In this document: positions 10,230 to 32,570 of the stretch, in pieces
How the letters are laid out: every line of letters starts with the position of its first letter
How positions within the stretch are numbered: position 1 is the stretch's first letter
NCBI GenBank assembly: GCA_031315865.1
Contig: JALDRJ010000002.1
Coordinates: forward strand, 2,764,001 to 2,828,000
Source of the DNA: Nitrospirales bacterium
Lineage (GTDB): Bacteria; Nitrospirota; Nitrospiria; Nitrospirales; UBA8639
DNA length: 64,000 nt
Direction of reading: 5' to 3'
Translations under genes and position numbers: made by a program
Notes under the pieces: generated by a model
The model's database searches: none
Told to the model about the DNA's origin: nothing
The model's input: only the letters and a program-made list of their open reading frames with translations

Positions 10230-10514
10230 ATGGAAATCAAAAACCGTGCAGGCGTGGCCGTGCTGCAGCCTGAAGGGGATCTGACGATCTTCGAAGCTGC
10301 AGATTTTCGTGATGCCTTGTTGACGCTACTGGAGCATGAAGGTCCTGTTGAACTCGATCTAGCCGGTGTTGAGCGGGTGGATTCATCGGGAATACAGATG
10401 TTGGTCGCTGCCGCTCGTCAAGACCGATTCTCCGTTACGGGCATGTCTTCTGCCGTGAACGAAAAGGTCGCAAGCATTGGTTGCGCTCATTTTTTACTGA
10501 AAAAAGAACCGTAG
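10230..10514 (+). CDS. STAS-domain anti-sigma factor antagonist
   Basis: This 94 aa single-domain STAS protein starts MEIKNRAGVAVLQPEGDLTIFEA and carries the phosphorylatable signature VERVDSSGIQML with S52/S53. STAS proteins of this type (SpoIIAA/RsbV) are phosphorylated by RsbW-like kinases and reactivated by PP2C phosphatases; candidates for both are encoded just upstream at 5720 and 4451. The gene heads chemotaxis cluster 1. STAS genes beside cheY-cheA-cheW-MCP-cheR-cheD-cheB are a recurrent arrangement, but the biochemical link to the chemotaxis proteins is not established by sequence. A candidate sigma-28 promoter lies at 9975. Confidence 0.85.
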   Translation: MEIKNRAGVAVLQPEGDLTIFEAADFRDALLTLLEHEGPVELDLAGVERVDSSGIQMLVAAARQDRFSVTGMSSAVNEKVASIGCAHFLLKKEP

Positions 10515-10575: not shown

Positions 10576-11727
10576 ATGAGTCCTAATTGGTGGTGGGTAG
10601 GTGGAGCGTTCGTTGTGGGCGGCGTCTTCGGGGCGTTGTGCAAACGACGGGTGTCAGGTGTCGACCAGACCAGCGTTCAGCCTCAATGGGTATCTGAGCA
10701 TGAATTTCAGAAGGAGCGCAGCATTGCCACGAGTTGGGAAGCATTTGCTCGGGCATTGACCCCATTGCTGCCTGTCTTTGTCGCGCAGATGAAGTCGGTG
10801 ATCAAAGAGACCGAGGAAGCTTCGAACGGGCTTATTCAACGGTTTCAAAAAATCTCGCAGAGGGCGAGGGAGCAAGCCTCTGAAACCGAGGCGCTTATCA
10901 ATATGGGGGAAAGTTCGAGTGATTCGGAAGATGATTCCTCTGTTGAAGGGATATTGCACGCCACGAAAAGTACCATGGATATGTTCGTGAATCAGGTGAG
11001 TTCGACCTCCGCCGTCACCAACAGCACCATGGGAGTGATGGAAGAAGCCGTGGCCTCGACCACAAGAATTTCGAGCGTCGTTGAGGAAGTAGAGTTTATC
11101 GCCGATCAAACCCGCCTGCTCGCGTTGAATGCGGCGATTGAAGCTGCACGAGCGGGAGAGCACGGACGAGGGTTTGCCGTCGTGGCTGATGAAGTGACGA
11201 AATTAGCCAACCGATCAGGTCAAGCGGCTGAACAAATCCGAACGTTGGCGACGACCGTGAAAGGCACGACAGAATCCGCCATGAAAGAGCTGCAAGGGCT
11301 TGCCGCGATTGATTTGACCGAGACCTTAGGGGCCCAGCAGCGCGTGCTTGAGATGACGGAGGTGATGGCGTCAAAAAATGCGGCGTTGAGAAAGAACATG
11401 AGTCAAAATAGTCAACGGGCCCAGGAGTTGGGGAACGATATCGCACAAATTGTGATGGCGATGCAATTTCAAGATATCACTCGGCAGAAACTGGAACATG
11501 TCTATGAACCTCTTGAACTCATCTATGATCCCTTGCACGCCGTACAAGCCAGCGGTGATCATCAAGAATTTCCGGCGGATGTACTGAACCAACTGCAAAA
11601 ACTGGAGATGTCCTACACGATGGAGTCTGAACGGACGATCATGAAAGCAGCCAAGGATGGGAAAGAAGTCGTGGTCGTGGGAACCGGGACCAGCGTAAAC
11701 GAGGAAGACGCCGTCACGCTGTTTTAA
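10576..11727 (+). CDS. Short membrane-anchored MCP-like protein with CheZ-type C-terminal motif
   Basis: This 383 aa protein has one N-terminal hydrophobic helix ([18 protein letters not shown]), no periplasmic sensor and no HAMP. A coiled-coil region leads to the strictly conserved chemoreceptor hairpin tip, with [18 protein letters not shown] near residue 175 and then [15 protein letters not shown]. After the returning helix comes [14 protein letters not shown] with D300 and Q304. This resembles the CheZ catalytic helix (FQD-x-x-x-Q; compare D131 and Q135 in the CheZ at 41142). I infer a tip that joins receptor arrays and a helix that may bind or dephosphorylate CheY. A paralogue is at 22490. 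Routine annotation would call it a methyl-accepting chemotaxis protein. Confidence 0.8.
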
Positions 11728-11866: not shown

Positions 11867-12238
11867 ATGGGTAAAACTGTTTTAGTCGTAGATGATTCCG
11901 TGTCGATGAGGCAAATGGTGACCTTTACCCTACAGGGAGCTGGCTTTGAAGTCGTGGAAGCTGGAGATGGAAAGGAAGCGGTCGAAAAGCTCAATGGTGG
12001 CGCCAAGCCCAATCTGGTCATCACCGATCTCAATATGCCCAACATGGACGGCATTTCCCTGATCAAAGCCATTCGTGGAATGCCAGCTCATAAATTTACT
12101 CCGGTCCTGATGTTAACGACAGAATCGGCGGACGATAAGAAAAAAGAAGGGCAAAGCGCCGGAGCGACTGGCTGGATCGTCAAACCGTTCAATCCGGAAC
12201 AGATGTTAGCGACGATTGGAAAAGTGTTGCCTGCCTAA
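11867..12238 (+). CDS. cheY: CheY-type single-domain response regulator (cluster 1)
   Basis: The 123 aa receiver has an acidic pocket and switch motifs in order: VLVVDDSVSMRQM, phospho-acceptor Asp in ITDLNMPNMDG, LTTESADDKK (conserved Thr) and WIVKPFNPEQ (conserved Lys). No output domain is fused. It sits 30 bp before cheA1, the expected phosphodonor. This is one of three CheY-like proteins in the window (also 30129 and 40699). The one at 40699 next to cheZ is the better candidate for the flagellar-motor ligand, so this copy may serve another output or act as a phosphate sink. Confidence 0.92.
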   Translation: MGKTVLVVDDSVSMRQMVTFTLQGAGFEVVEAGDGKEAVEKLNGGAKPNLVITDLNMPNMDGISLIKAIRGMPAHKFTPVLMLTTESADDKKKEGQSAGATGWIVKPFNPEQMLATIGKVLPA

Positions 12239-12267: not shown

Positions 12268-14373
12268 ATGGCGGTAGATCTTTCGCATTTCCAAGAGTCC
12301 TTTTTTGAAGAGTCAGCTGAGCATGTTGAGACGATGGAGACCGGGTTGCTCGACCTGGAGCAACGGCCCACAGATCTCGACTTGCTGAATCGAATCTTTC
12401 GCGCGGCGCATTCCATCAAGGGCAATGCAGGCATGTTCAGCTTCACGGCTATTAGCGGGCTAACACACAAGATGGAAAACGTCTTGGATAAACTGCGCAA
12501 TAGTCAGATGGTGGTGACCAAGGACATTATCGATCTCCTTCTCCAAGCGTTGGATGGCCTCAAATCGCTGCTGGATGCGGCGCGGGGGAATGGGGAGATT
12601 GATGTGACTCACATCGCGGCGCTGGAAGCGCGGCTGGTGGATTGTTTCAATGGAGGTGACGCGAGTCCGTCAACCGCTCAAGCTGCTGGCGTAGAGCGCG
12701 CCTCCTCCGTGACGGCTGCTGCCGGCCTGCGAACTGTGACGATTTCATGGAGGCCTTTGGCGGAACTCTTTCAACGAGGTCTGGACCCATCTCAATTATT
12801 CAGGGAACTTGCAACGCTCGGCAAAGTGTTGGAATTGGACGTGCATGTCGACGTGCTTCCTGATCTCGCAACCATGGACGCTGAACGTTGTTACTTATCA
12901 TGGACGCTCGTCGTCGAGACCGACAAGCCGGTGAAAGACCTTGATGCGGTGTTCGATTTTGTCCGTGATGGGAGCGAGCTACAGATTACCGATCAAAATG
13001 AAGCGGATGACGAGTATAAGCCGCTCGGCGAAATCCTGGTGGATGAAGGGGCCGTTTCGCCAGAACAGGTAGACGCGGCTTTGGCGAAACAAAAGCCCCT
13101 CGGCCAGATTTTGGTAGAGGAGAAGGCGGCAACACCGCAACAAATCAATCAAGCGCTCAGTAAACAACAACAGATGAAGAAGGCCGAAAGTGCGTCGATT
13201 CGTGTTGATACGGAAAAGATCGACAAGCTGATCAATCTGGTCGGGGAACTTGTCATCACTCAATCCATGATCACGGATCTTGGAGAAAAATTTACGATGA
13301 GTCAGCTCCCTGTCCTTCAGGAGCGGATCATTCAATTGGAGCGCAACACGCGGGAATTGCAAGAACGAGTGATGTCCGTTCGGATGGTCCCGATCGGTGC
13401 CACAGCCTTTAATCGATTTCCGCGTTTGGTTCGAGATCTCGCTAGCAAGAGCGGCAAAAAAATTCAATTACTCATGTCCGGGGAAGAGACGGAATTGGAT
13501 AAAACCCTGATCGAGGCGATTGGCGATCCCCTGACTCATCTTGTCAGAAATTCGGCAGATCATGGGCTTGAAGGACCGGAGGAACGTGTGGCCGCAGGAA
13601 AGTCGGAATTAGGGACGATCCGACTCAATGCCTATCACGATGGCGGCAGCATCTGTATCACGGTTGAGGATGATGGGCGAGGGCTTAATCGGAGCAAAAT
13701 TCTGAAAAAGGCGGTTGAGAAGGGATTGATCATCGAGAATAACCAGCTTTCTGATGACGAAGTGTGGCAATTGATCTTTAGGCCTGGTTTTTCGACGGCG
13801 GAGACCATCACGGATATCAGTGGGCGCGGTGTGGGGATGGATGTCGTGAAGAGAAATATCGAAGCCCTCGGAGGAAGTGTGGCTGTCCAATCGAACGAGG
13901 GAAAAGGGTCGAAGTTGACGCTCAAGCTGCCACTGACGCTCGCCATTATCGACGGCATGACCGTTCGTGTGGCGAATGAGAATTACATCATTCCTCTGAT
14001 CTCGGTGACGGAGTCGATACGTCCGAAACTGGAAGATCTTCAAACGGTGGTGGGCAAAGGAGAAGTAGTGAATCTCCGTGGTGAGTGGGTGCCGATGGTG
14101 CGACTCTACGATGTCTTTGGAGTCGAAGCAGAGTTCACGAACCCGGCCGAGGCCCTTCTCGTGATCGTTGAAGCAGAGGGGAAACGTGTGGCGCTGTTCG
14201 TGGATGAACTGACCGGTCAACAGCAGGTGGTCATTAAAAGTCTCGAACAGAATTATGAAAAGGTCGAAGGCATTTCGGGGGCGACGATCCTGGGCGATGG
14301 GCAAGTGGCCTTGATTCTGGATATCACAGGTCTGGTCAAACTGTCCAGGATGGCCAAGACGGTCGCGGCCTAA
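12268..14373 (+). CDS. cheA: Chemotaxis histidine kinase CheA1 with tandem MshEN-like motifs
   Basis: CheA phosphorylates CheY and CheB in response to receptors. Domains in order: HPt with H48 in FRAAHSIKGNAGMF; a poorly conserved middle region; two adjacent ~24-residue motifs at about 252-275 (PLGEILVDEGAVSPEQ, ending ALAKQ) and 277-300 (PLGQILVEEKAATPQQ, ending ALSKQ); the dimerisation domain; HATPase with HLVRNSADHGLE, VEDDGRGLN and ISGRGVGMDVVKRN; and a C-terminal CheW-like domain. All kinase motifs are intact. The twin motifs resemble the LGxxL...LxxQ halves of MshEN c-di-GMP-binding domains. It lies between cheY and cheW of cluster 1. Confidence 0.94.
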   Translation: MAVDLSHFQESFFEESAEHVETMETGLLDLEQRPTDLDLLNRIFRAAHSIKGNAGMFSFTAISGLTHKMENVLDKLRNSQMVVTKDIIDLLLQALDGLKSLLDAARGNGEIDVTHIAALEARLVDCFNGGDASPSTAQAAGVERASSVTAAAGLRTVTISWRPLAELFQRGLDPSQLFRELATLGKVLELDVHVDVLPDLATMDAERCYLSWTLVVETDKPVKDLDAVFDFVRDGSELQITDQNEADDEYKPLGEILVDEGAVSPEQVDAALAKQKPLGQILVEEKAATPQQINQALSKQQQMKKAESASIRVDTEKIDKLINLVGELVITQSMITDLGEKFTMSQLPVLQERIIQLERNTRELQERVMSVRMVPIGATAFNRFPRLVRDLASKSGKKIQLLMSGEETELDKTLIEAIGDPLTHLVRNSADHGLEGPEERVAAGKSELGTIRLNAYHDGGSICITVEDDGRGLNRSKILKKAVEKGLIIENNQLSDDEVWQLIFRPGFSTAETITDISGRGVGMDVVKRNIEALGGSVAVQSNEGKGSKLTLKLPLTLAIIDGMTVRVANENYIIPLISVTESIRPKLEDLQTVVGKGEVVNLRGEWVPMVRLYDVFGVEAEFTNPAEALLVIVEAEGKRVALFVDELTGQQQVVIKSLEQNYEKVEGISGATILGDGQVALILDITGLVKLSRMAKTVAA

Positions 14374-14519: not shown

Positions 14520-15038
14520 ATGTCTACAGCGATAGCAGAGGTCACGGAAGTCACGAGTGGATTGAGTGCGGATGGCCAGCAATACCTGACGTTTGACCTG
14601 GCCGAGGAACATTACGGAGTCGATATCTTAAAAGTTCAAGAAATCAAAGGCTACACGGCTGTCACCAAAATTCCGAACACGCCGGAGTATTTGAAAGGCG
14701 TGTTGAACCTGCGAGGGACGATCGTTCCAATCGTTGACCTGAGGTTGAAGTTCGGGATGGGAATGACCCAGCCCACGGCGTTTACGGTCATCGTGGTGGT
14801 TAACGTGTGCAAACGGGTCATGGGCTTTCTGGTGGATGCCGTATCGGATGTCTTGGAGTTCGCGAATAAAGACATTCAACCTCCGCCGGAATTGGGCAGC
14901 ACAGTCGACATCACATTCGTTTCGGGGATCGGAAGTTGTAACGACCGTCTGGTCACATTACTGGATATTGACCGAGTGTTAATTGATACGGAAGTCGCGG
15001 CCGTGACTGCGGCCAGTCAAGAGCAAGGAGAGCAATGA
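14520..15038 (+). CDS. cheW: Chemotaxis coupling protein CheW (cluster 1)
   Basis: CheW couples CheA to chemoreceptor tips. The 172 aa protein shows the usual order: [59 protein letters not shown] and the closing LLDIDRVL. It has a good ribosome-binding site (GAAGGAGG, 13 nt upstream of the ATG) and is followed directly by an MCP gene. Other CheW proteins are at 26636 and 47269, with a CheV at 43899, so each CheA in the window has its own neighbouring coupler. Confidence 0.95.
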
Positions 15039-15115
15039 TGAGCCTACATGCACAGTCCGTCAATGTATCACGTCTTTTCAAACAATCACAGAAGACACGA
15101 GGGGGTGAGGGAGCG

Positions 15116-17368
15116 ATGAAACAAGTCATGCAGACGTTTTTAAGCTGGGGCATCGCGGCCAAACTGGTCACGCTATTCCTGATATTCGGGGTCCTTCCGA
15201 TGGCCGCAGTCGGAATGATTGCCTACAACGCCGGCGAGGATATGAAAACCGGAGTCGGGATGCGCTTCCAGACGACCGCAGTAGAGTTAGCCAATAAAAT
15301 CGATCGAAATTTGTCTGAACGATATGGCGACGTTCAAGCCTTCGGGTTCAACGATGCGGTTCATCGTATTTCGCAATGGTATGATCCCACCCCGTTCAAT
15401 TCAATCAGTCAAGTCATGAACCGGTATTCCGCTGCGTATGGGATCTATGACCTGCTTATCATGGTCGATACCAGGGGCGATGTGATCGCAGCCAACTACA
15501 AAGACCCGAATGGTAAGCCTATCAATAGCCAGTTTGTCTTCGAGAAGAACTACAGTAACACTCCGTGGTTTAAGGCCCTCTCGAACGGGGAATTCACGAC
15601 CAAGCAGCCCTTCACCGCTCCAGGAAACGATACATGGACGGGGACGTATATCGAAGATGCTCATGTTGACTCTGATGTTGCGAAAGCAACAGGGGGCGAT
15701 GGGTATGTGATGGGATTTTCCGCGCCCGTGTATAACGACGTCGGTGAAGTCGTGGCCTATTGGACCAATCGGGCCAGCATGCGCGGTGTCGAAGAAATGT
15801 TCCAGGATGCCTATAGGAGTTTAAAGTCACTTGGATTTCCCGGGAGCGAAATTACGTTGTTGGATGCACACGGACGTATCCTCGTGGACTTTGATCCATC
15901 GACGCATTCCACCGATGAGGTCGTCAGAAATTTTGACGTGTTAATGAAACTCAATCTGGCAGAGAAAGGCGTCGAGGCGGCTCAGCAGGCCGTCGCCGGA
16001 AAATCAGGAAGTCTCACGGCCCAGCACATGCGTAAACAAATCAGCCAGGTTTCGGGGTATACGCATCTGGTCGGAGCGAACGGATTTCCCGGGATGAATT
16101 GGGGAATCATGGTGCGGGTGCCGGAGGGAGAAGCTCTCGCCGATGCGAACAGCGTCCAGAATTCCGTGTTGCAAACGGGATTGATTTGTTTGGCCATCAT
16201 CGCTCCGATCGGATGGTACGTCGGTCGAAAAGGTGCGGCCAATTTGATCAAAGTGAGCGATGTGGCCCAGAAGGCCGCCAATGGCGACTTGACGCATCGC
16301 GCAGAGATCACGAGTAAGGATGAATTGGGGCAATTGGCCGGGGCATTTAACGCGATGATGGATAACCTGACGAGGGTCGTCGGCGACGTCCGGCAAGCGG
16401 CCGAGCATGTGTCGACGGGATCAGCGGAGATTACGCAAGGCAATGAGGATCTGTCCCAACGGACATCTCAACAAGCCAGCGCGTTGGAGGAAACCAGTGC
16501 GTCGATGGAAGAAATGACTTCGACCATCAAGCAGAACGCCGACAACGCCAAGCAGGCCAATCAGCTCGCTGTCGCGGCCCGTGAAGTCGCGGAAAAAGGC
16601 GGCGCGGTGACGGAAAACGCCGTGAATGCGATGAGTGAAATCAATAAGAGCAGCAAAAAGATCGCCGATATCATCAACGTCATCGATGAAATCGCGTTTC
16701 AGACCAATTTGCTGGCCTTGAACGCGGCTGTTGAGGCGGCCAGGGCCGGTGAGCAAGGCCGGGGCTTTGCCGTCGTCGCGTCGGAAGTTCGAAACCTGGC
16801 CGGCCGATCCGCGACGGCCGCGAAGGAAATCAAGACCTTGATCAACGAATCCGTGCAAAAAGTGAGCGATGGGAGCGATCTGGTGAATCAATCAGGTCAA
16901 ACGTTGGAAGAAATCGTCAATTCAGTCAAACGCGTCACAGACATTATTTCAGAGATTAGCGCCGCTTCACAGGAACAAGCCGCGGGTATTGACCAGGTCA
17001 ACAAGGCCGTGATTCAGATGGATCAATCCACACAGCAAAATGCGGCGCTCGTCGAAGAAACGACATCGGCTTCACAGTCCATGCGGCAGCAGGCGAGTGA
17101 GCTGTTGCGGCAAGTGTCCTTTTTTAAGACGGACGAAGAAGACGGTGAAGATTCCGGCTACGGAAAAGTCGCGCAAGCAGGACGAGCCGCGCATGGGCAA
17201 CCGAAAGCGAAGGCACCTGTGTCCTCCGCTCCAGTTGTGAAAGCGGCCAATAAGCCAGCGTCGGCGCCAGTCGCGAAATCTCCTCAGGCTCCAGAGCCGG
17301 CCGGAGTCGGGGCGGGCAATGGTCATGAGCGCCGAAAGGGCAATGATGATTTTTTTGAAGAATTCTAA
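15116..17368 (+). CDS. Methyl-accepting chemotaxis protein with periplasmic dCache-like sensor
   Basis: A transmembrane chemoreceptor of 750 aa from ATG 15116, preferred because GAGGGAG lies just upstream and [11 protein letters not shown] leads straight into the first membrane helix. An ATG at 15035 overlapping the cheW stop would add 27 residues. The periplasmic part (~residues 40-340) has the size and [19 protein letters not shown] repeats expected of a double Cache domain. A second helix and HAMP follow, then the signalling domain with [19 protein letters not shown] and [15 protein letters not shown]. The Ala/Pro-rich tail ends NDDFFEEF, reminiscent of the xWxxF tether for CheR but with Phe in place of Trp. 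The ligand cannot be told. Confidence 0.93.
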
Positions 17369-17437: not shown

Positions 17438-17469
17438 CTCTCAGGAACACTGTTTAAAAAGGAGTGTGT

Positions 17470-18045
17470 ATGAAATACGTATCAAAGAACAAAATCTGGT
17501 CAACGATCATGGCCGTGATGCTGATTGTGGTGGTCGGCAGCATGACGTTGTTGACGAACGGTCAGGCCGCCATGACGAAAGACTTTACCCTCGATCGCGA
17601 CGCCATGACCAAGTATATCTTGGCCACGGTGCAGGCTGCCCGTACGATCTACGTAAAAAGTGTGCTTCGTAAAATCAAGAAGGCTGGGATGACGGCTTCT
17701 GAGGACTGGGTCAAGGAAGACCACGCAGTGATGTTGCCAGCCCAGTTCGTCAAATCCTTGGGGTATGAGATTCAAGGCTATGAGTTGTCTCTCGTCGGGA
17801 CAGATCCTTTGTACGACACCAATTTACCGAAGACCCCAAAAGAGAAGGAAATGCTGGGCAAACTGGCGAGCGGGAAAGAGAAAATGATCACGTTCCAGGA
17901 TGGGACGCAATACAAGGGCATGTCCGCGGACTTCGCGATTTCGCAGGGCTGCGCAGACTGCCACAACCAACATAAACGCACCAAAAAACGGGACTGGAAG
18001 AAGGGTGATTTCATGGGCGCCATCATCATCCGGATGCGGGGATAA
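17470..18045 (+). CDS. Exported heme-c DUF3365 (Tll0287-like) protein, copy 1
   Basis: The 191 aa product has an N-terminal signal/anchor (VSKNKIWSTIMAVMLIVVVG) and a Tll0287-like (DUF3365) domain. Its features are ILATVQAARTIYVKSV, a central MLPAQFVKSLGYEI, LVGTDPLYDTNLPKTP and the heme-c site C161-A-D-C164-H165 in GCADCHNQH. It should be periplasmic and carry one covalent c-type heme. AAAAGGAG precedes ATG 17470; the GTG six bases earlier is unlikely. Its close relative follows at 18261, and the MCP at 44987 has the same kind of heme sensor built in. This suggests a redox or diatomic-gas sensing role tied to chemotaxis (inference). Confidence 0.82.
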   Translation: MKYVSKNKIWSTIMAVMLIVVVGSMTLLTNGQAAMTKDFTLDRDAMTKYILATVQAARTIYVKSVLRKIKKAGMTASEDWVKEDHAVMLPAQFVKSLGYEIQGYELSLVGTDPLYDTNLPKTPKEKEMLGKLASGKEKMITFQDGTQYKGMSADFAISQGCADCHNQHKRTKKRDWKKGDFMGAIIIRMRG

Positions 18046-18062
18046 GCACGAAAAAACGTCAT

Positions 18063-18106
18063 ACGTGAGACGAGAAACACGAGGAAAACATCGTCTCGTC
18101 TCACGT
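18063..18106. repeat. Perfect 13-bp inverted repeat in intergenic spacer
   Basis: ACGTGAGACGAGA (18063-18075) is exactly repeated in inverse as TCTCGTCTCACGT (18094-18106), with an 18-nt loop. It lies after the first heme-c gene. A T-rich stretch follows only loosely (CATCTTTTGC), so termination is possible but not convincing. The arm belongs to the ACGTGAG motif family seen in several other spacers. Confidence 0.6.
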
Positions 18107-18260
18107 CTCCCATCTTTTGCTTCCGTTGCACGACTGCTTGTATCTCCTCCTGTATAGAAACCCAGACAGATTGACATTCCCCAGTTCAATCGCTACCGTA
18201 CGCACTTCAGAATGAGGCGTTCTTAGCCATTATTATCATCACTCTAATGGAGGGGGTGTT

Positions 18261-18800
18261 ATGAAGAATAGGTTGAGAGTTTCGACTGCGGTTTGTGCGT
18301 TAATCGTGGGGGTGGCGATGGTGCTTCCATCGGCGCAAGCCGAGGACATTAGCAAGGGCCAGGCGGCTGAGTTCATTCTGGCCACAGCCAAGGCTGCCCG
18401 TACCGTGTTCGTGCAAGACATCATCGCCAAGGCTAAGGAAGGTGGAGTGAATCCCAATGAAAATTGGGCGAAGGCTGATCATTCCATTATGTTGCCGGCG
18501 CAATTCGTGAAAGCCGTGGGTTCGCAAATCACGGATTTTGAATTAGGCCTCGTGGGCACCGATCCGTTGTATGCGGCCAATGCGCCCCAGACGGATGCCG
18601 AGAAAAAGGCGCTCGCCGATCTTGCAGCCGGTAAAGTGAAAGTTGTGACGTTCGAGGATGGCGGAAAAACGGTGGGTATGTCTGCGGACTTTGCCATCGT
18701 CCAAGGCTGCGCTGATTGTCACAACCAACATCCTAAAACCACGAAAAAAGACTGGAAGAAAGGTGATTTTATGGGAGCAGTCGTGGTCCGCATGAAGTAA
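18261..18800 (+). CDS. Exported heme-c DUF3365 (Tll0287-like) protein, copy 2
   Basis: This 179 aa protein has a clear cleavable signal peptide (MKNRLRVSTAVCALIVGVAM, with a probable AQA cleavage site near residue 27) and a Tll0287-like domain parallel to the gene at 17470: ILATAKAARTVFVQDI, MLPAQFVKAVGSQI, LVGTDPLYAANAPQTD, MSADFAIVQ and GCADCHNQH with heme-binding C150, C153 and H154. The two are clearly tandem duplicates that have diverged. A strong terminator ends the transcript at 18828. Likely a soluble periplasmic monoheme protein. Whether it acts as an electron carrier, a gas sensor or a partner for the upstream MCP cannot be read from sequence. Confidence 0.85.
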   Translation: MKNRLRVSTAVCALIVGVAMVLPSAQAEDISKGQAAEFILATAKAARTVFVQDIIAKAKEGGVNPNENWAKADHSIMLPAQFVKAVGSQITDFELGLVGTDPLYAANAPQTDAEKKALADLAAGKVKVVTFEDGGKTVGMSADFAIVQGCADCHNQHPKTTKKDWKKGDFMGAVVVRMK

Positions 18801-19631: not shown

Positions 19632-20471
19632 ATGAATGTCACGACCCTTTCTGACACCGAGTACGAACAGTTTCAGGCGTTTATTTACGCACAAGTCGGG
19701 ATCAAGCTTAATGGCGACAAAAAAACCTTGCTGGTCTCTCGATTAGGAAAGCGACTTCGACAGCTTGAGCTTTCATCCTATCAAGAATACCTGGATTACG
19801 TTCGCGGCGAAGCCGGCCACGAAGAACTCACAAATCTTTTGGATCTCGTTTCGACGAATAAGACGGACTTTTTCCGTGAGCCGATTCATTTTGATTTTCT
19901 TCGGCAAACGATCATTCCTTCACTCATGGATCGGCGTCAGATTCGAATTTGGTCTTCGGCGTCTTCCTCTGGCGAGGAGCCTTATACGATCGCGATGACG
20001 TTGTATGATGCCGTGCAACGTCCGGATCAATGGGATTTTAAGGTCTTGGCCTCGGATATCTCGACGCGTGTCTTGGCCAAGGCGGCGGCGGGCATTTATG
20101 ACGATGAACGGGTGAGCAGTTTGGATCCGGCACTGGTTCGTCGACATTTCCTCAGAGGGCGGGGGGAGCAATCACATTCCATCAAAGTCAAACCGCATAT
20201 CGCAAATCTCGTGCGGTTCCGGCGTATCAATTTAATGGATGAGACGTTTCCGATCAAATCTGCCTTGGATGTGGTGTTTTGCCGTAATGTCATGATTTAT
20301 TTCGATCGAGACACCCAGTCCCGGCTCGTGAAAAAATTCTATCGATATTTGAAGCCAGGAGGGTATCTCTTTATCGGGCATTCCGAGAGTCTTCAATGGG
20401 TTGATCATCCATTCGAGTACGTGCAGCCGACGATCTATCAAAAGCCCGAAGAAGGCCTGCAAAAGCCTTGA
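19632..20471 (+). CDS. cheR: Chemoreceptor glutamate methyltransferase CheR1
   Basis: CheR methylates receptor glutamates using S-adenosylmethionine. The 279 aa protein has the N-terminal helical domain (KLNGDKKTLLVSRLGKRLRQL), TNKTDFFREPIHFDFL, the SAM-binding SSASSSGEEPYTIAM, LASDISTRVLAKA and the C-terminal VVFCRNVMIYFD followed by GYLFIGHSES. All conserved regions are intact, in contrast to the second cheR at 31733. It is followed by cheD and cheB, making a complete adaptation set for cluster 1. Confidence 0.95.
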   Translation: MNVTTLSDTEYEQFQAFIYAQVGIKLNGDKKTLLVSRLGKRLRQLELSSYQEYLDYVRGEAGHEELTNLLDLVSTNKTDFFREPIHFDFLRQTIIPSLMDRRQIRIWSSASSSGEEPYTIAMTLYDAVQRPDQWDFKVLASDISTRVLAKAAAGIYDDERVSSLDPALVRRHFLRGRGEQSHSIKVKPHIANLVRFRRINLMDETFPIKSALDVVFCRNVMIYFDRDTQSRLVKKFYRYLKPGGYLFIGHSESLQWVDHPFEYVQPTIYQKPEEGLQKP

Positions 20472-20567
20472 AGAGTGAACCGTAATCTGTCAAACGATGC
20501 ATTCAAAAAAGGATCTAGCTCTTTGATTCACTGCGCGTGATGGGATTATGCGTCACTTGGAATCGTG

Positions 20568-21158
20568 ATGGACTTTGCTCATATCAGACGTATGACGGAT
20601 ACACGATTTCCGCATGAGATCGCGGTCATCCTTCCAGGCGAGTACTTTTTGAGTGAAACTCCAATGGTGGTGTATACCGTGCTGGGTTCCTGTATTTCCG
20701 TGTGTCTTCGCGATCCCTATGTCGGGGTGGGCGGAATGAATCATTTTATGCTTGCCGCGCCGAGCGCATATGGGGGGAGTGACAGTTGGGCTGAGTCAGG
20801 CCGCTACGGGAGTTACGCGATGGAAATGTTGATCAACGGTATCTTGAGTCGCGGAGGACAACGGAATCGACTCGAGGCGAAGGTGTTTGGTGGTGGAAAA
20901 ATCTATGAAGGCAGTCTGGATGTGGGCGCCAAAAATGCCGCGTGGGCCATGGATTATCTGGAGCAGGAAGGTATGCCGCCGATTAAGGCTGATGTTGGTG
21001 ATGTCTGTCCGAGAAAGGTGTATTACTTCACCAATTCCGGAAAAGTCTTGATGAAAAAATTAGACCGCCTGGAATCGCATTCTATCGTTCAAGAAGAGAA
21101 ACGCTACAAATCGACGTTGGAAACGACGACGACCAAAGCAGACGTGACGTTGTTCTGA
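20568..21158 (+). CDS. cheD: Chemoreceptor glutamine deamidase CheD
   Basis: CheD deamidates receptor glutamines and in some bacteria interacts with CheC/CheX-type phosphatases. The 196 aa protein carries the family core VYTVLGSCISVCLRD with the active-site Cys and Thr, GVGGMNHFMLA with the His, and KVFGGGKIYEG. ATG 20568 is preferred over the GTG three bases earlier. It lies between cheR1 and cheB1. It is the only cheD in the window and might serve the receptors of all three clusters. Confidence 0.95.
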   Translation: MDFAHIRRMTDTRFPHEIAVILPGEYFLSETPMVVYTVLGSCISVCLRDPYVGVGGMNHFMLAAPSAYGGSDSWAESGRYGSYAMEMLINGILSRGGQRNRLEAKVFGGGKIYEGSLDVGAKNAAWAMDYLEQEGMPPIKADVGDVCPRKVYYFTNSGKVLMKKLDRLESHSIVQEEKRYKSTLETTTTKADVTLF

Positions 21159-21266: not shown

Positions 21267-22328
21267 ATGACTGGGAAAAAGATTCGCGTACTGATCGTGG
21301 ATGATTCTGCATTAATTCGTGGGGTCATGACCGAGCTCTTATCCCACGATCCTGAGATTGAAGTGATCGGGACGGCAACTGATCCCTATGCGGCCAGGGA
21401 TAAGATTAAGAGCCTCAATCCGGATGTCTTGACCCTTGATGTCGAAATGCCAAAGATGGATGGATTGACCTTTTTACAAAAAGTCATGCATGGGCATCCG
21501 ATGCCTGTGGTGATGGTCAGTTCCCTTACGGAGTCCGGGTGTGAGACCACTCTGCGCGCGTTGGAATTTGGTGCGGTTGATTTTATCACCAAGCCCAAGA
21601 TTGATGTGCAACACGGCATGGAAGAGCTCGCTGAGACGATCACGAGCAAAATTAAGGGTGCTGCTTCGGCGTCGGTTCGAAAGCGTACTCCGACACACTC
21701 GAATCAAGCACGCATTCGGGAGTTGGCCAGCCATAGCTCCATGATCAAGACCACCGATACGATCATCGCCATTGGCGCTTCGACGGGAGGCACTGAAGCC
21801 TTGAAGGAACTTCTTGAAGTTCTGCCGCCGAGTGTTCCTCCGATTATCATGACGCAGCATATGCCTGAACGGTTTACCAAAACTTTCGCAGATCGTCTCA
21901 ATCAAGTCTGCCAAATCGGCGTGAAGGAAGCCGAGGAGGGGGATAGCGTGATTCCCGGACAAGCGCTCCTTGCGCCGGGGAACTATCATATGGAATTACG
22001 ACGGAGCGGAGCGCGGTATCATGTCACGCTGAATCAGAAGCCGCCAGTGAATCGGCATCGTCCATCAGTGGACGCGATGTTTCAATCGGTCGCTCAATAT
22101 GCGGGCTCCAATAGTCTTGGGGTTATTCTTACGGGGATGGGCAATGATGGGGCGGCGGGCATGTTAGCCATGAAAAAGGCGGGAGCGTTTAATTTGGCGC
22201 AAGATGAAGCTTCTTGTGTGGTCTTCGGGATGCCGAAAGAAGCGATCAAGGCCGGAGGCGTAGACAAAATCCTTCCATTACATGACATCCCCAGCGCGAT
22301 GCTCGCACATCTCAAGTCTTTGGGGTAG
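21267..22328 (+). CDS. cheB: Receptor methylesterase / response regulator CheB1
   Basis: The receiver (VLIVDDSALIRGVM, acceptor in LDVEMPKMDG, FITKPKI) is joined to a methylesterase domain with the catalytic triad motifs intact: Ser in IGASTGGTEAL, His in TQHMPERFT and Asp in GMGNDGAAGM. The protein has 353 aa, normal for the family. AAAAAGGAG precedes the ATG. It closes cluster 1, with cheR1 and cheD upstream. Confidence 0.95.
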   Translation: MTGKKIRVLIVDDSALIRGVMTELLSHDPEIEVIGTATDPYAARDKIKSLNPDVLTLDVEMPKMDGLTFLQKVMHGHPMPVVMVSSLTESGCETTLRALEFGAVDFITKPKIDVQHGMEELAETITSKIKGAASASVRKRTPTHSNQARIRELASHSSMIKTTDTIIAIGASTGGTEALKELLEVLPPSVPPIIMTQHMPERFTKTFADRLNQVCQIGVKEAEEGDSVIPGQALLAPGNYHMELRRSGARYHVTLNQKPPVNRHRPSVDAMFQSVAQYAGSNSLGVILTGMGNDGAAGMLAMKKAGAFNLAQDEASCVVFGMPKEAIKAGGVDKILPLHDIPSAMLAHLKSLG

Positions 22329-22489: not shown

Positions 22490-23491
22490 ATGATGGATGT
22501 TTTCTACAACGTCGCGACATTTTTGATGGGCGCAGGTTTAACCTATGTGATCTCGCTTAAATACCTATGGCCTATGAAAGAGGCAAAGATTCAAGCGGAG
22601 CTCCGTGCGCGAGAACGAAATGAGTCCAAGAAGATGGACGTCAGTACGTTGGTGCCGGTTATTGAGAAAACGAAAGCCCACGTTCGGGAAGTTGTGGATA
22701 TTGTCGAGGAAGCGGTCCTAGAACTCATCACGCGATTTCAAATGATTACCGATTCGGCCATCGCGGAGTCCAGAACAACAGCCGAACGTTTGAGCCGGGA
22801 AACACTGAGTGGGGAAAGTAGTGAGAGTGATCAGTCTTTGCTCGGTGAAACGAACCGGATTATGTCGAATTTCGCCGAAAGTGTGGTGGAATCATCGAGA
22901 CTTGGAATGGATGTCGCGACCGTGGTCGAAGAAGTCGAAGTAAGCACGAAACGGATTCCTCCGCTGTTGGAAGAAATCGAATTTATCTCAGATCAGACGC
23001 GATTGCTCGCGCTCAATGCAGCGATCGAGGCCGCTCGGGCCGGAGAACATGGACGTGGCTTTGCGGTGGTCGCGGAAGAAGTCACCAAGCTTGCGACTCG
23101 ATCTCAAGTCGCGGCGGCCAATATCCAAGATGTCATCAAGGCCATGAATGAGAGTACGGAAAAAGCCATTAATTCACTGCACGGGTTTTCGTCGATCGAT
23201 TTAACGGGGGCCCTCGATACAAAAGAACGAATCACTGAAATTACGAAAGTGATCGAGGCGAAAAACCTCGCCATGCAAGAAGGTGTCGTGCAGGCGACCA
23301 ACGCCGCACAAAAGCATGCCAATGAAGTCACGGATATCGTGATGTCGATGCAGTTTCAGGATATTTCTCGGCAACGGCTTGAACGAGTGATTCAGGATCT
23401 TTCAGGCCTTCAGGAGATCATACAATCGTTTCAGGTTCATGCCGACAAGTTGCCCGGCCAGGAAGAAGGACTGGCTTCTCTTTCTGTTTGA
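22490..23491 (+). CDS. Second short membrane-anchored MCP-like protein with CheZ-type motif
   Basis: The 333 aa paralogue of the gene at 10576. It has one N-terminal membrane helix ([19 protein letters not shown]), no sensor domain, no HAMP, coiled coil, and the receptor tip [18 protein letters not shown] followed by [18 protein letters not shown]. The C-terminal helix has [17 protein letters not shown] with D291 and Q295 in the spacing of the CheZ catalytic residues. The two paralogues share the layout tip, amphipathic return helix, [10 protein letters not shown]-like segment and FQDI motif. It lies between cluster 1 and the promoter of cluster 2. Probable role: array-localised CheY phosphatase or adaptor (inference). 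Confidence 0.8.
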
Positions 23492-23854: not shown

Positions 23855-26632
23855 ATGAGTGATATGGATGCGGCTGTCTCAGAATTTCTCATCGAAAGTG
23901 ATGAAAACCTCAATCATGTCGAACGGGATCTGATTAACCTAGAGGGAACACCGGACGAAAGCACGCTTTCCAGCATTTTTCGGGCGATTCATACGATTAA
24001 AGGGACGTGTGCCTTCCTCGGCTATTCGAAACTCGAGAGCCTGGCTCATACAGGGGAAACTCTGCTGAGTCTTGTGCGCGACGGGGAATTGTCGTTGACT
24101 CCCGAGATGACCAGCGTTCTGTTGGCGATGGTCGATGCGATTCGCCAGATGCTGGAATGTATCGAACAGAGTGGAGGAGATGGCGAAGATGAATTCGTCG
24201 AACTTAAGGCACGATTGACGGCCCTGCAGTCCCGTGACCCGCAGCCGATCGCATCGGAGGAACTGTCGACGGTTGTTCCTCAATCTGCCGTTTCTCCTAC
24301 GGAAGAATCCAGAGGGTCTGACCCGGTTCAGTCCGATCCATCTTTGGATGAGGCGGTCTCAGAATTTCTCATCGAAAGCGATGAAAACCTGAGCCAAGTC
24401 GAGCGTGATCTTGTCGATCTGGAAGAACATCCGGATGAACAGACCTTGTCGAGTATCTTCCGTGCCATCCATACCATCAAAGGAACATGTGCATTTTTGG
24501 GGTACGTCAGGCTGGAAAGTCTCGCGCATACGGGAGAGACGCTGCTTAGCCTCATTCGAGATGGCGAACTTGTCCTCACGCCTTCCAGGACAAGCGCTTT
24601 GCTGACGATGGTGGATGCCATCCGTCAGATGCTCCAGAGTATCGAACAGCACAAGCATGACGGAACGGACGATTTCGCTGAACTCAAAGCACAGCTGACC
24701 GCACTGCAAAGCGATGCTGAGGCATCGTCGTCTGCTCCTGTCTCAACCTTATCAGAACCCGAGTCAACTGGGTCGGACGATTCTCCAACGGGGATGCCTT
24801 CTGCAGAATGTCTTCCGGCTGATGTTTCCGCCCCTTCCTCATCATTCTTGAGCCCCGGAACTCCTCAAGTGGAATTTGAATCCAAGTCGGACCCGAAAAC
24901 CTTAGCTCCAGGCGAGGCCAAAGGCCCGTCAGCAGCTGAATCTTCCATCCGTGTGGATGTCGGTTTGCTGGATAAATTAATGAACATGGTCGGCGAACTG
25001 GTCTTGACACGCAATCAAATCCTGCAATGTACGGGAACTCAGGATGATGCGGGTTTACTCGCATCGTCCCAGCGGCTGAGTCTGATTACGTCGGAATTGC
25101 AGGAAGGCATCATGAAAACACGGATGCAGCAAATCGGCAATGTATGGAGCAAGTTTCCACGAGTTGTCCGTGATTTGGCCATTTCATGCGGAAAAGAAAT
25201 CCGCCTTGAAATGGAGGGCAAGGATACTGAACTGGATAAAACCCTGATCGAGGCCATCAAAGATCCCTTGACTCACCTGGTCAGAAATTCAGTCGATCAT
25301 GGAATAGAGCCCCCCGATGTTCGGGAACAACGTGGAAAGGCCCGTGAAGGAATACTCTTGCTCCGAGCCTATCATGAAGGTGGTCAGGTCAATATTGAAA
25401 TAACTGACGACGGAGGCGGCATCAACGCGCAACGTGTGGCCGAGACAGCCGTAAAACGGGGAGTGGTGACACAGGAACAGGTTTCCAGGATGCCAGAACG
25501 GGAACTGCTGAATCTTATTTTTCTCCCAGGGTTTTCGACCGCAGCCAAGGTGACGAACGTCTCCGGTCGCGGCGTGGGAATGGATGTCGTCAGAACGAAC
25601 ATCGAAAAAATCGGCGGCACGATTGATATTTCGACGAAATTGGGTGAAGGCACCACCTTCAAGCTTAAAGTCCCTCTGACGTTGGCGATTATTCCTGCGC
25701 TGATCGTAACCACGAGCGGTGAACAATTCGCGATTCCACAGGTGAGCCTTCTAGAGCTTGTACGGTTAGAAGGCGAGATGATCCGGAAATCGATCGAAAA
25801 TATTCACGGCGCCCCGGTCTGTCGACTTCGTGGCCATCTCCTGCCATTAGTGTACTTGCACGAAGTGATGCAACTCACCCCGAGCGCCTGTCATGGAGAG
25901 GATGATTCGGAGGTTGTGAACATCGTCGTCCTGCAGGCCGACGGTAATCGCTTTGGACTCGTGGTGGAAGACATTAATGATACCGAGGAAATCGTGGTCA
26001 AACCCTTGAGCAAACAACTCAAAGGGATTCCTGTGTTGGCGGGAGCGACGATTATGGGTGATGGACGCGTGGCCTTGATTTTGGACGTCATGGGATTAGC
26101 CCATCGCGTGGGCCTGGCAGTCGAAAGCGGCGAGCATATGCCCGGAGATCAGTTGGATGGTCGGAACATGGAAGGAAGTGGGAGTCGCAAAGCCCTACTG
26201 ATTATTCAGGTCGGAGACAGAGGACAGGTTGCGATTCCCCTCGATATGGTCGCGCGTTTGGAAGAAATTCCCGTGTCATCGCTTGAAGTCGCTGGGGGAC
26301 AAGAAGTGATTCAGTACCGGCAGGAAATTCTTCCCGTCATTCGACTTTCCTCGGTCTTGTCGACTCATGGGTGTGCTTCGTCATGTGAACAAGAAACGAT
26401 TCAAGTGGTGGTGATTTCGCAAGGAGACCGTCAGGTGGGATTGGCGGTGGACCGCATCGTGGATATTGTCCAGGAAGAGGTCAAGGCCAAAACGACGTCT
26501 GCTCAGCCCGGTATTCTTTGTTCGGCAGTCGTTCAAGAACGGGTCACGGATTTACTCGATGTGCAAGCGGTCGTGCAACAGTGCCGTCTGGCACCCTTTA
26601 AAGAAGCTTATCAAGAAGTGGTGGGAGTCTAA
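23855..26632 (+). CDS. cheA: CheA2 kinase with two HPt and two CheW-like domains
   Basis: A 925 aa CheA with an unusual layout. Two HPt domains have phospho-acceptors H46 and H206, each in FRAIHTIKGTCAFLG and exactly 160 residues apart. An acidic Ser/Pro-rich linker follows, then dimerisation, HATPase (HLVRNSVDHGIE, ITDDGGGIN, VSGRGVGMDVVRTN) and two successive CheW-like domains (LTLAIIPALIVTTSGEQFAIPQ in part, and KALLIIQVGDRGQVAIPLD). No receiver is fused. The HPt copies are also very similar at DNA level, which points to tandem duplication. The HATPase motifs look functional. cheW follows after 3 bases, and a sigma-28-like promoter is at 23695. Confidence 0.93.
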   Translation: MSDMDAAVSEFLIESDENLNHVERDLINLEGTPDESTLSSIFRAIHTIKGTCAFLGYSKLESLAHTGETLLSLVRDGELSLTPEMTSVLLAMVDAIRQMLECIEQSGGDGEDEFVELKARLTALQSRDPQPIASEELSTVVPQSAVSPTEESRGSDPVQSDPSLDEAVSEFLIESDENLSQVERDLVDLEEHPDEQTLSSIFRAIHTIKGTCAFLGYVRLESLAHTGETLLSLIRDGELVLTPSRTSALLTMVDAIRQMLQSIEQHKHDGTDDFAELKAQLTALQSDAEASSSAPVSTLSEPESTGSDDSPTGMPSAECLPADVSAPSSSFLSPGTPQVEFESKSDPKTLAPGEAKGPSAAESSIRVDVGLLDKLMNMVGELVLTRNQILQCTGTQDDAGLLASSQRLSLITSELQEGIMKTRMQQIGNVWSKFPRVVRDLAISCGKEIRLEMEGKDTELDKTLIEAIKDPLTHLVRNSVDHGIEPPDVREQRGKAREGILLLRAYHEGGQVNIEITDDGGGINAQRVAETAVKRGVVTQEQVSRMPERELLNLIFLPGFSTAAKVTNVSGRGVGMDVVRTNIEKIGGTIDISTKLGEGTTFKLKVPLTLAIIPALIVTTSGEQFAIPQVSLLELVRLEGEMIRKSIENIHGAPVCRLRGHLLPLVYLHEVMQLTPSACHGEDDSEVVNIVVLQADGNRFGLVVEDINDTEEIVVKPLSKQLKGIPVLAGATIMGDGRVALILDVMGLAHRVGLAVESGEHMPGDQLDGRNMEGSGSRKALLIIQVGDRGQVAIPLDMVARLEEIPVSSLEVAGGQEVIQYRQEILPVIRLSSVLSTHGCASSCEQETIQVVVISQGDRQVGLAVDRIVDIVQEEVKAKTTSAQPGILCSAVVQERVTDLLDVQAVVQQCRLAPFKEAYQEVVGV

Positions 26633-26635
26633 CCC

Positions 26636-27088
26636 ATGTCTGATGCAAAACAATATTGTACGTTTTATCTCGATGGCCTTTTTTTTGGCGTTGATGTGTT
26701 GAGTGTTCAAGAGGTGATTAAATTCCAGGACATGACGAATGTACCGCTGGCTTCGAAAGTTGTTCAAGGATTGATCAACCTGCGAGGACAAATCGTGACC
26801 GCTATCGATCTGCGACGGCGATTGGAGCTGAATGAGCGTTCGCCAGATCAAGAACCCATGAATGTCGTGATTCGGACGGATGACGGGGCGGTGAGTCTCT
26901 TGGTGGATGAAATTGGCGATGTCATTGAAGTGACGGATGACACGCTGGAGTCTCCTCCGAATACAGTCAAGGGAGCGGCCCGTGAACTCATTTGCGGAGT
27001 CCATAAGCTCGAAGGTTGCTTGCTGCTGATTTTGGATACGGAAAAAGCTATCACCGTACACCATGCATTGGCAGGGGTCGGAGAATAA
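26636..27088 (+). CDS. cheW: Chemotaxis coupling protein CheW (cluster 2)
   Basis: The 150 aa CheW starts right after cheA2. Motifs: YCTFYLDGLFFGVDVLSVQEVI, VVQGLINLRGQIVTAIDL, SLLVDEIGDVIEV and LLLILDTEKAI. It should link CheA2 to the globin-PAS receptor encoded immediately downstream. Size and motif order are normal. Confidence 0.95.
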   Translation: MSDAKQYCTFYLDGLFFGVDVLSVQEVIKFQDMTNVPLASKVVQGLINLRGQIVTAIDLRRRLELNERSPDQEPMNVVIRTDDGAVSLLVDEIGDVIEVTDDTLESPPNTVKGAARELICGVHKLEGCLLLILDTEKAITVHHALAGVGE

Positions 27089-27133
27089 TGACGAGAAACA
27101 CATACGCAAGGCATTTCAGCAGATGGAGAAAGG

Positions 27134-29980
27134 ATGGAGACTTCAATGACGACCACAGTACAGACGGGTAAACATTCCACTTCGATCTTTGAACAAATCG
27201 GAGGCTCAGAAAGTGTGACAGCAGCGGTTTCAGCGTTGTATCAGCGTGTGTTGGCTGATCCGATGCTTCAACCGTTTTTTGTCAATGTGGACGTCTCGAC
27301 GCTCAAGGCCAAGCAAGTGCTGTTTTTTACTCAAGCGTTAGGTGGACCGGCAGTTTACAAAGGCCCCCCCATGAAGCCGGCTCATGCGCATCTTTCGATC
27401 ACACAACATCATTTCGATCGTGTCGCCGAACACCTGGTGGAGACGTTGAACAGTCTCAATGTCTCATCGGAATTGATCGACCAGATTGTCGCGCTCGTCG
27501 GACCACTCGCATCAGATATCGTGAATACGATCAATCCCATACAAGAGAACCACGAGGAAACTGAATCTTTACCAAATCAGGGGAGGAAGAAGAATATGGG
27601 TACAGTAGGATCTCAAGGGGCGACTGCCGTGATGGATGTACAGACGGAACATGTGGGCAATGTTGCGGAACTCAAAAGTCTGTACGAAGCGATGGATAAA
27701 GTGCAAGCCATCATCGAATTCAATATCGATGGCACGATCATCACGGCCAATGACAACTTTTTAAAGACCCTGGGCTATTCCCTCTCGGAGATCCAAGGCC
27801 AACACCATCGGATGTTCGCGGAGCCAGCGTATGCCGCCAGTCCCGAGTATGCCGCTTTTTGGGCCAAACTGAACCGTGGTGAGTTTGATACCGGAGTCTA
27901 TAAACGGTTTGGTAAAGGCGGAAAGGAAGTCTGGATTCAAGCTTCGTATAACCCCATGTTTGACGAGTACGGAAAACTCTATAAGGTCGTGAAGTTTGCC
28001 ACGGATATCACGGAATTCAAGAAACTCAACGAAGAATATGAAGCCAGAAACACCGCGGTCGGTAACGGGAACGCGGTCATTGATTTTTCGATGGATGGAA
28101 CGATCCTGGACGCCAACAAAAATTTCCTGAACACGATGGGGTATACGCTCGATGAGGTCAAGGGAAAGCACCATCGGATGTTCGCGGAACCAGCCTATGC
28201 CGCCGGTCCAGAGTATGCCGCTTTTTGGGCCAAACTGAACCGTGGTGAGTTTGATGCCGGAGTCTATAAACGGTTTGGTAAAGGCGGGAAGGAAGTCTGG
28301 CTTCAAGCCTCGTATAACCCAATCGTGGATTCAACCGGTAAACCCATTAAGGTGGTGAAGTTTGCGACGGATGTGACGGAAGCCAAACAGGTGGAAATCC
28401 AGGCCGCTCGTGTCTCCAACATGATGGAGAATGCTCCTGTAAATGTGTTGTTTGCCGATAAGGACTTGCGTATCAGGTATGCGAATCCAGCCTCGCTCAA
28501 AACGCTCAAGACTCTTGAGCAATACCTGCCGTGCAAGGTGGATGATCTGGTCGGGCAGAGTATCGATATCTTTCATAAGAATCCTTCACATCAACGGAAT
28601 TTTCTCAGTGACCCCAAGAACCTGCCTCATCAGGCCAATATTCAAGTGGGGCCGGAGATGCTCAGTCTCCTGGTGAGTGCGATTCATGATCATGCCGGCA
28701 ATTATCTTGGGCCGATGGTTACCTGGGAGGTCATTACCGAAAAGCTCAAGACCGAAACGGAGATGGCCCGGGTGAATTCCATGATGGAAAATGCTCCCAT
28801 CAATGTGATGTGCGCGGATCTGGACCTGAAAATTCAATATATGAACCCGGCTTCCAGGAAGACATTGAAAACGATCGAACAATATCTGCCGATTCCGGTC
28901 GAACAGATGCAGGGACACACGATTGATGTCTTTCATAAGAATCCTACGCATCAACGTCAATTGTTGAAGGATCCCAAAAACTTACCGCATAAGGCCCACA
29001 TTCAAGTCGGCCCTGAAACATTAGATCTTCTGGTAAGTGCCATCTATGATCAAAACCAAAAGTATCTCGGGCCGATGGTCACCTGGGAGGTCATCACAGA
29101 AAGGCTGAAGCAGGAAGCTGCGATTAAGGAAGCCAATGAACGTGAAAAAGCCACGGCGGCCCAGCTGAAAGATGGTGTGAGCCAAGTCGCGGATATTTCG
29201 ACAACATTGGCGAGCGCATCAGAACAACTCACGGCCGTCAGTCAAACGATGGGGACGGCTGCGGAAGAAACGTCGAGCCAGGCCAACGTCGTGTCTGCGG
29301 CTGCTGAAGAAGTCAGTAAGAATGTTCAAGGGGTCGCGACGGGCTCTGAAGAACTCAGCGCGAGTTTTAAAGAAATCGCCAAGAACACGACTGATGCGGC
29401 CAAGGTTGCGAGTGAAGCGGTCTCCGTCGTTGAAGAGACTAACATGACGGTCGGAAAGCTCGGTGAGAGTAGTGCCGAAATCGGCAGCATCATCAAAGTC
29501 ATCACTTCGATCGCGCAACAAACCAACTTGCTCGCGCTCAATGCGACGATTGAAGCCGCTCGTGCAGGTGAAGCCGGTAAAGGGTTTGCTGTCGTCGCGA
29601 ATGAAGTCAAGGAATTGGCCAAAGAGACGACCAAGGCGACTGAAAATATCGGCAAAATGATCGAGACGATCCAGGGCGATACGAAAGGCGCAGTGGATGC
29701 GATGGGACATATCAGTGGGATCATTAAGCAAGTCAATGATTTCATGAATACGATCGCCAGTGCCGTTGAAGAACAGTTAGCGACCACGAACGAGATGAGC
29801 CGGAATATCAACGAAGCCTCCAAAGGCACCGGGGAAATTGCTGGCAATATTTTGAATGTGGCGCAGGCGGCAAAGGGCACGTCAGAAGGTGCCGTACAAA
29901 CGCAGACCGCCTCGGCTGAGCTCTCCAGAATGGCGGCAAATCTGCAAGCCGTCGTTCAACAGTTGACGACATTGCAATAG
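27134..29980 (+). CDS. Soluble chemoreceptor: group I truncated hemoglobin, four PAS, MCP signalling domain
   Basis: This 948 aa protein has no membrane segment. Residues ~16-130 are a group I truncated hemoglobin aligning by eye with mycobacterial trHbN: Y36 at B10, L57 at E7, Q61 at E11 and the proximal F8 histidine H84 in PPMKPAHAH. Two near-identical PAS domains follow (~180-300 and ~302-420, each with [12 protein letters not shown]), then two of another PAS type (~425-545 and ~546-665, with MMENAP, FHKNP and MVTWEVIT). The signalling domain has [19 protein letters not shown] and [15 protein letters not shown]. It probably senses O2 or NO through heme, with PAS domains as further redox or ligand inputs. 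A second ribosome-binding site and ATG occur at 27596. ATG 27146 is an alternative start. Confidence 0.9.
27579..27598 (+). promoter_or_regulatory. Internal ribosome-binding site and ATG at the globin-PAS junction
   Basis: GGGGAGGA stands 8 nt before an in-frame ATG at 27596 (codon 155), at the junction between the globin domain and the first PAS. It is at least as strong as the gene's own start site. It could yield a 794 aa receptor lacking the globin, or be the relic start of an independent PAS-MCP gene before fusion. Confidence 0.5.
27803..28300 (+). repeat. Tandem PAS duplication inside the globin receptor gene
   Basis: The stretch from CACCATCGGATGTTCGCGGA (27803) recurs almost unchanged 366 bp later (28169), with near-identity over about 130 bp through the GGTTTGGTAAAGGCGG segment. 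A second, more diverged pair starts at 28421 and 28781 (360-bp offset). This implies stepwise duplication of PAS units of 122 and 120 codons. Confidence 0.85.
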
Positions 29981-32557: not shown

Positions 32558-32570
32558 GAGGAGAATGCGT

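Follow-up and report, generated by a model that had tools for sequence, protein, structure and literature searches.

An McpA-like receptor of Nitrospirota with CheZ-type arms, a candidate array-anchored CheY-P phosphatase

In the 64,000-nucleotide stretch of Nitrospirales DNA analysed here (the window), the open reading frame at 10576..11727 (+ strand; ATG start, 383 residues) encodes a protein, designated MCPZ copy 1, in which a chemoreceptor hairpin tip appears to take the place of the loop in a CheZ-related helical hairpin. Homology of the arms to CheZ is highly probable from sequence comparison, and the favoured, less secure reading is that MCPZ as a whole is a receptor-tipped CheZ-type hairpin acting as an array-anchored CheY-P phosphatase. 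Because it falls below the CheZ family cut-off and lacks the CheZ tail, MCPZ should be classed with the McpA-like receptors, as one bearing a CheZ-type hairpin, and not as a CheZ. A second copy (333 residues) lies directly after cheB at 22490..23491 (+).

Pfam finds one domain above cut-off in copy 1, MCPsignal (92.5 bits), marking a receptor hairpin tip of the CheA/CheW-binding type (residues 176-212; 11101..11211). It finds neither a sensor domain nor a HAMP, as an earlier sequence-only reading had proposed, and the sensor-plus-HAMP arrangement of a canonical methyl-accepting chemotaxis protein is thus absent. The single membrane anchor of that reading holds up in part: there is one N-terminal hydrophobic stretch (residues 5-22; 10588..10641; AF2 helix from residue 6), but it is Gly/Trp-rich and weak, with a Kyte-Doolittle 19-residue mean never above 1.3, and a single N-terminal anchor, weak by hydropathy, is plausible. 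The N-arm (residues 64-100; 10765..10875) matches CheZ helix 1. The C-arm (residues 285-313; 11428..11514), reading VMAMQFQD300ITRQ304KLEHV, matches the CheZ active-site helix, and its D300-I-T-R-Q304 (11473..11487; D300 at 11473-11475, Q304 at 11485-11487) is equivalent to CheZ D143/Q147. By hairpin counting, the N-arm patch at residues 71-97 and the C-arm patch at 288-313 roughly face each other.

The C-terminal part of copy 1 is looser. It carries YTMESER (residues 347-353; 11614..11634), conserved in long and short forms of the family, and closes with EEDAVTLF, of which D-A-V-T-L-F (11707..11724) is conserved; the would-be pentapeptide has Val at position 2, as in McpA. The C-terminal CheY-binding helix of CheZ (DDLLxxxGF type) is absent from copy 1, the tail being conserved but different. 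Copy 2 has arms and tip as in copy 1, with active-site-type residues D291 (23360-23362) and Q295 (23372-23374), and is without both YTMESER and the VTLF tail. All of these features lie on the + strand.

A whole-protein similarity search with copy 1 over 198 genomes of the phylum gave matches at E<=1e-20 in 41 of them, although the lowest-scoring may be canonical receptors. Seven C-arm residues (Q297, F298, Q299, D300, R303, Q304 and E307) are invariant in the top homologues from this whole-protein retrieval (26/26) and in 71/71 long forms of a larger set, in which [AS]xxFQDxxxQ is likewise universal, this larger set having been retrieved partly by the motif. Tip-to-motif distance is constant among relatives, which, with the invariance in the 26 homologues, lifts the D300/Q304 motif beyond chance. 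Mean column entropy is 0.33 bits in the tip and, outside it, lowest at residues 285-315 (1.01 bits, most other stretches lying at 2.2-3.2). In the N-arm, A82 and F90 are invariant and T79/E80 nearly so; the tail across the family is mostly [NSTA][VI][TVE]LF.

When 84,980 species' genomes were scanned with the C-terminal part of copy 1, it was found mainly in Nitrospirota, and also in Geobacteraceae, other deltaproteobacteria, Acidobacteriota, Delongbacteria and Omnitrophota; a tblastn of plasmids with its C-terminal 106 residues gave no matches. In the loci of 80 relatives the next genes are almost always those for CheY and CheA, with STAS commonly before. The five Geobacteraceae or deltaproteobacterial genomes with MCPZ contain no CheZ above cut-off. 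MCPZ is present in only 3/58 genomes of the Geobacter order, however, and a general replacement of CheZ by MCPZ in Geobacter was rejected on that account.

The sequence-only reading had likened D300/Q304 to the catalytic pair of CheZ by their D-x-x-x-Q spacing. Alignment to FQDLTGQ of E. coli CheZ (1KMI), made through a CheZ HMM and the window's true CheZ, bears this out, and the resemblance reaches beyond spacing to both helices, to profile-profile comparison with its controls, and to tip-less orthologues. The true CheZ (41142-41753; Pfam 61 bits), itself aligned to the 1KMI motif, sits in a separate cluster beside its own CheY and CheA. The joining of AxxFQ to DxxxQ is a published hallmark of CheZ (PMC7750401); MCPZ carries it on helix 2, together with LP..L..V...TE on helix 1, and further shares with CheZ (PF04344; E. 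coli D143/Q147) a hairpin fold and CheY-CheA as neighbours. MCPZ differs from CheZ in that a receptor tip replaces the loop, in its membrane anchor, in the missing DDLLxxxGF tail and in scoring below the Pfam cut-off.

A CheZ-only HMM (44 sequences, receptors strictly excluded) was run against 3400 ORFs; its scores were 26.5 bits (E 7.2e-7) for copy 1 and 27.4 bits (E 3.8e-7) for copy 2. At E<1e-3 it matched 83/89 long and 14/22 short relatives, against 1/58 canonical receptors and 0/3185 other ORFs. The domain alignment consists of two ordered matches, the N-arm to helix 1 (lPeAtdhLqdvikkTEeatnk) and the C-arm to FQDLtgQ. With separate helix models, the helix-2 HMM exceeded 5 bits on 75/75 C-arms and 0/35 canonical ones; the helix-1 HMM did so on 61/75 N-arms compared with 0/35 canonical N-arms, 0/375 shuffles and 2/75 reversed sequences, in a register to the tip that is nearly constant among relatives. 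The helix-1 HMM is, however, not decisive alone, since 10/35 canonical C-arms also exceed 5 bits. Profile-profile comparison, the check envisaged in the earlier reading, was run by hhalign on the family with its tip excised, and returned a 95.8% probability for the long family over both CheZ helices and 90.8% for the short family; canonical MCPs treated alike reached 2.7%, and reversed CheZ <1%.

Library models are in line with these results. Pfam CheZ (PF04344) matches copies 1 and 2 weakly, at the active-site helix (E 0.31 and 0.24), copy 1 scoring 11.3 bits with a gathering cut-off of 30.7. Many family members were picked by a genome search with PF04344, all below cut-off, and among relatives CheZ ranks second by frequency of Pfam match, with 22/26 hitting it (best 5.7e-6). 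NCBIfam CheZ NF041271 matches 50/71 long and 15/15 short forms, and a second NCBIfam CheZ model 23/71 and 4/15. The AF2 model of the long form is a receptor-like hairpin, for which structure comparison (Foldseek, VIA-align) returns receptor cytoplasmic domains; for the short form, an AF2 single chain gives a helical hairpin (pLDDT about 85-92 over the hairpin), which retrieves many unrelated helical hairpins with CheZ not listed among them, and fold search is uninformative for hairpins.

A direct bridge between MCPZ and CheZ is provided by Acidobacteriota proteins above the Pfam CheZ cut-off that carry QFQDITRQK, as MCPZ does. The active-site helix is nearly identical to that of MCPZ in the CheZ proteins of loci L158 and L162 and in the CheZ-like proteins of L151 and L153; these proteins differ from MCPZ in having either a HAMP-CheZ arrangement or a FliM-like N-terminal MDQSEIDALL, and no receptor tip. 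Two of them (L158:1438-2475 (-) and L162:1342-2286 (-)) have HAMP and CheZ both above Pfam cut-offs, forming a HAMP-CheZ fusion that ends in VDDIIAQF. The other two (L151:1480-2064 (-) and L153:1102-1764 (+)) are roughly 200 residues long, and their initial MDQSEIDALL resembles a FliM-type CheY-binding peptide, N-terminal where that of CheZ is C-terminal. Among Nitrospirota CheZ ORFs (L036-L040, L050-L059), many measure ~400-460 residues, of which about 200 precede the CheZ domain as an N-terminal extension.

About 18 of the 80 loci, some Nitrospira included, encode a short form of 170-190 residues with no receptor tip. It occupies the same slot as the long form, in the order STAS-X-CheY-CheA where X is long or tip-less, and keeps the N-arm (WEAFA..A..IPVLKAQM.AVT.ETERAAMELL), the C-arm, YTMEEERRLH and D[SA]VTLF. 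In a midpoint-rooted tree the short forms make up one clade (support 99/98) among long forms, which points to a probable single loss of the tip; what the short forms retain are the CheZ-like parts. With no tip, the short form has no region for receptor methylation, and its retained tail is therefore unlikely to serve as a CheR/CheB tether. The short form, the N-arm match to CheZ, YTMESER with the [DN]-x-V-T-L-F tail, and the McpA-like match had not figured in the sequence-only reading.

Copy 1 is preceded by a gene for a STAS protein (10230..10514), a conserved neighbour, and followed by genes for CheY (11867..12238), the presumed substrate, which keeps D13, D57, N59, T87 and K109 and has Q at the K26 position, and for CheA (12268..14373), whose best tblastn matches among plasmid records are enteric (F7-class) CheAs. 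CheW (14520..15038) and a canonical HAMP-MCP receptor (15035..17368; Pfam) come next, then two Tll0287-like proteins and a DUF420 protein, CheR (19632-20471), CheD (20565-21158) and CheB (21267-22328) and finally copy 2; the genes for STAS, CheY, CheA, CheW, the HAMP-MCP receptor, CheR, CheD and CheB lie, like both MCPZ copies, on the + strand. The order reported for F7 clusters is cheY-cheA-cheW-mcp-cheR-cheD-cheB, an mcpA-like receptor following cheB at stage 1 and preceding cheY at stage 2 (PMC7184735), and the MCPZ copies occupy both of these positions. From gene order and CheA similarity, the cluster around copy 1 appears to be F7-like. Copy 2 could instead belong to a second che unit that follows it (window 23855-29980), comprising another CheA, with two Hpt and two CheW domains, a CheW and a globin-PAS-PAS receptor.

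The two adjacent Tll0287-like proteins within the che cluster (window 17464-18800; Pfam) have weak CXXCH-type matches, and a receptor at window 44981-46660 uses a Tll0287-like domain as its sensor (Pfam). A CheX-type phosphatase is encoded at window 32493-33020 (PF13690, 60.6 bits; genome C2:2796691-2796909), and the genome thus has both CheX and CheZ. Genome-wide there are three systems with a CheA; the phosphatase candidates other than MCPZ are a single CheZ and a single CheX, and no CheC was found. Three candidate phosphatase types for three CheA systems are consistent with one type per system. CheC, CheX and FliY are CheY-P phosphatases and resemble MCPZ in that proposed role; their fold is unrelated to that of CheZ and their active site is of the ExxN type.

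Receptors, like CheZ, are dimeric helical hairpins; lengthening a CheZ hairpin by a receptor tip could therefore leave the bundle intact, which suggests that the two kinds of hairpin can merge. In the proposed mechanism, the N-terminus would anchor MCPZ in the membrane and the tip, judged by its intact sequence, would dock with CheA/CheW, while in the dimer the membrane-near arms would assemble into a four-helix bundle of the CheZ type. CheY-P from the neighbouring CheA may then bind at the arms, where Q304 would position the attacking water and D300 would orient CheY, so that CheY-P would lose its phosphate at the array. Docking of CheY probably falls to the [DN]xVTLF tail, perhaps together with YTMESER, in the manner of CheZ's own C-terminal peptide. 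Phosphatase function is moderately probable on this evidence. Should this hold, the receptor array would itself contain the means of ending a signal, in place of a soluble enzyme, and many genes now labelled chemoreceptors would encode phosphatases.

The substrate side introduces a complication. In E. coli, CheY K26 pairs with CheZ D143, and K26 is present in 16/16 CheYs paired with a true CheZ. Of the CheYs beside MCPZ (76 cases), essentially all retain D13, D57, N59, T87 and K109, but K26 is not retained and T mostly stands in its place; with this partner missing, either docking differs in detail or CheY is bound without catalysis. The latter would make MCPZ a CheY-P-binding adaptor or sink, its hairpin and tail holding CheY(-P) at the array or passing it between arrays, and the difference of its tail from that of CheZ and a reported association of McpA-like receptors with the F6 array (PMC7184735) point the same way. 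Such a role is nevertheless unlikely, as D300 and Q304 are invariant in 71/71 long forms and kept in the tip-less form, and binding alone would not obviously need Q304.

It is also improbable that MCPZ is an ordinary McpA-like receptor that modulates CheA through its tip only, with the QFQDITRQ patch a structural or dimerisation element left from a CheZ-like ancestor. The intact and strongly conserved tip agrees with such a role, as does the reported part of P. aeruginosa McpA/CttP in trichloroethylene taxis (PMC7534058); yet Pfam detects no sensor or HAMP domain, and orthologues at the same place in the operon have arms, motif and tail but no tip, which makes the tip the dispensable part. Chance or convergent coiled-coil similarity without any relation to CheZ is very improbable: heptad repeats inflate scores, the fold searches were weak and helix 1 has some background, but canonical MCPs, shuffles, reversed sequences and a reversed CheZ profile all fail, and bona fide CheZs bear the identical motif.

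The receptor-phosphatase reading bears on a class of receptors that has already been described. McpA-like receptors of F7 systems (CttP/PA0180, VCA1088) are placed in an odd or unassigned ('uncategorized') length class, 24H in the review, and are of unclear function and dispensable for the F7 array (PMC7184735, PMC7534058); their C-terminus is highly conserved, unlike the CheR pentapeptide [HFYW]x2[HFYW], with Val at the second position (PMC7184735). Copy 1 has in common with this class a membrane region and tip, an F7-like cluster and a tail, AVTLF, without [HFYW]x2[HFYW]. The earlier suggestion that the MCP label fails to cover this type is therefore right only in part, as the gene matches receptors described before, whereas the CheZ-type hairpin in them appears to be new: no report of a CheZ-like site in chemoreceptors was found in the literature searched, mostly outside subscription journals.

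Gamma-proteobacterial F7 clusters were reached through CheA on plasmids, and in those of Pseudomonas sp. HR96 and Aeromonas sp. BC14 an McpA-like receptor stands directly before CheY. Both receptors have N-arms of the IW..QIE.SR.QTE.A type, LQFQDRVSQIL.HVR C-arms, YAT.EQR and D[IV]TFF ends. The Nitrospirota N-arm and C-arm HMMs match HR96 at 2e-6 and 4e-9 and BC14 at 9e-4 and 6e-13, and the tip-to-Asp spacing is exactly 116 residues in copies 1 and 2, HR96 and BC14; a Vibrio relative is diverged (ALQFTDIIVQ ... EVELF). MCPZ and F7 McpA-like receptors thus have in common a position beside cheY-cheA or after cheB, a membrane segment, a tip without sensor or HAMP, and Val (or Ile) at position 2 of the would-be pentapeptide, the likeness being drawn through the HR96 and BC14 sequences, with CttP/McpA PA0180 and VCA1088/Mlp44 known by published description. 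They differ in that Nitrospirota MCPZ has FQDITRQ where the gamma-proteobacterial proteins have FQDRVSQ, has one weak anchor where those have two hydrophobic segments, and occurs in a tip-less short form.

Published accounts place the cheZ of stage 1-2 F7 genomes only in the F6 system and have mcpA disappear at stage 3, where cheY and cheZ of F6 were retained as a pair; this distribution fits MCPZ as the F7 phosphatase. It is tentatively proposed, at slightly less than even confidence, that McpA-like receptors of Nitrospirota, Geobacteraceae, gamma-proteobacteria and others are receptor-phosphatases: a form of CheZ that gained a receptor hairpin within its loop or has a common origin with that hairpin. 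In ancestral F7 systems they would have been devoted to dephosphorylating CheY-P, and the enteric lineage would have dispensed with them once F7 adopted the CheY/CheZ pair of F6. This reading would offer an answer to the published puzzle of what McpA-like receptors do in F7 and why their C-terminus is conserved, and to how the original F7 CheY is switched off where cheZ belongs to F6.

Larger proteins with related features occur elsewhere. In Desulfobacterota (L169-L176, L178), proteins of ~620-660 residues have a QF[QH]DITRQQ arm near residue 260-280, a weaker second match later, a receptor-like region and a [DN]NVELF end, and are possibly duplicated MCPZ units without a membrane anchor. After cheB in an F7-like cluster of Azospirillum, a 622-residue protein (L183:17438-19303) with no recognisable FQDxxxQ has LYTGDREREIH and a VDEFF end, and is perhaps a degenerate relative of MCPZ.
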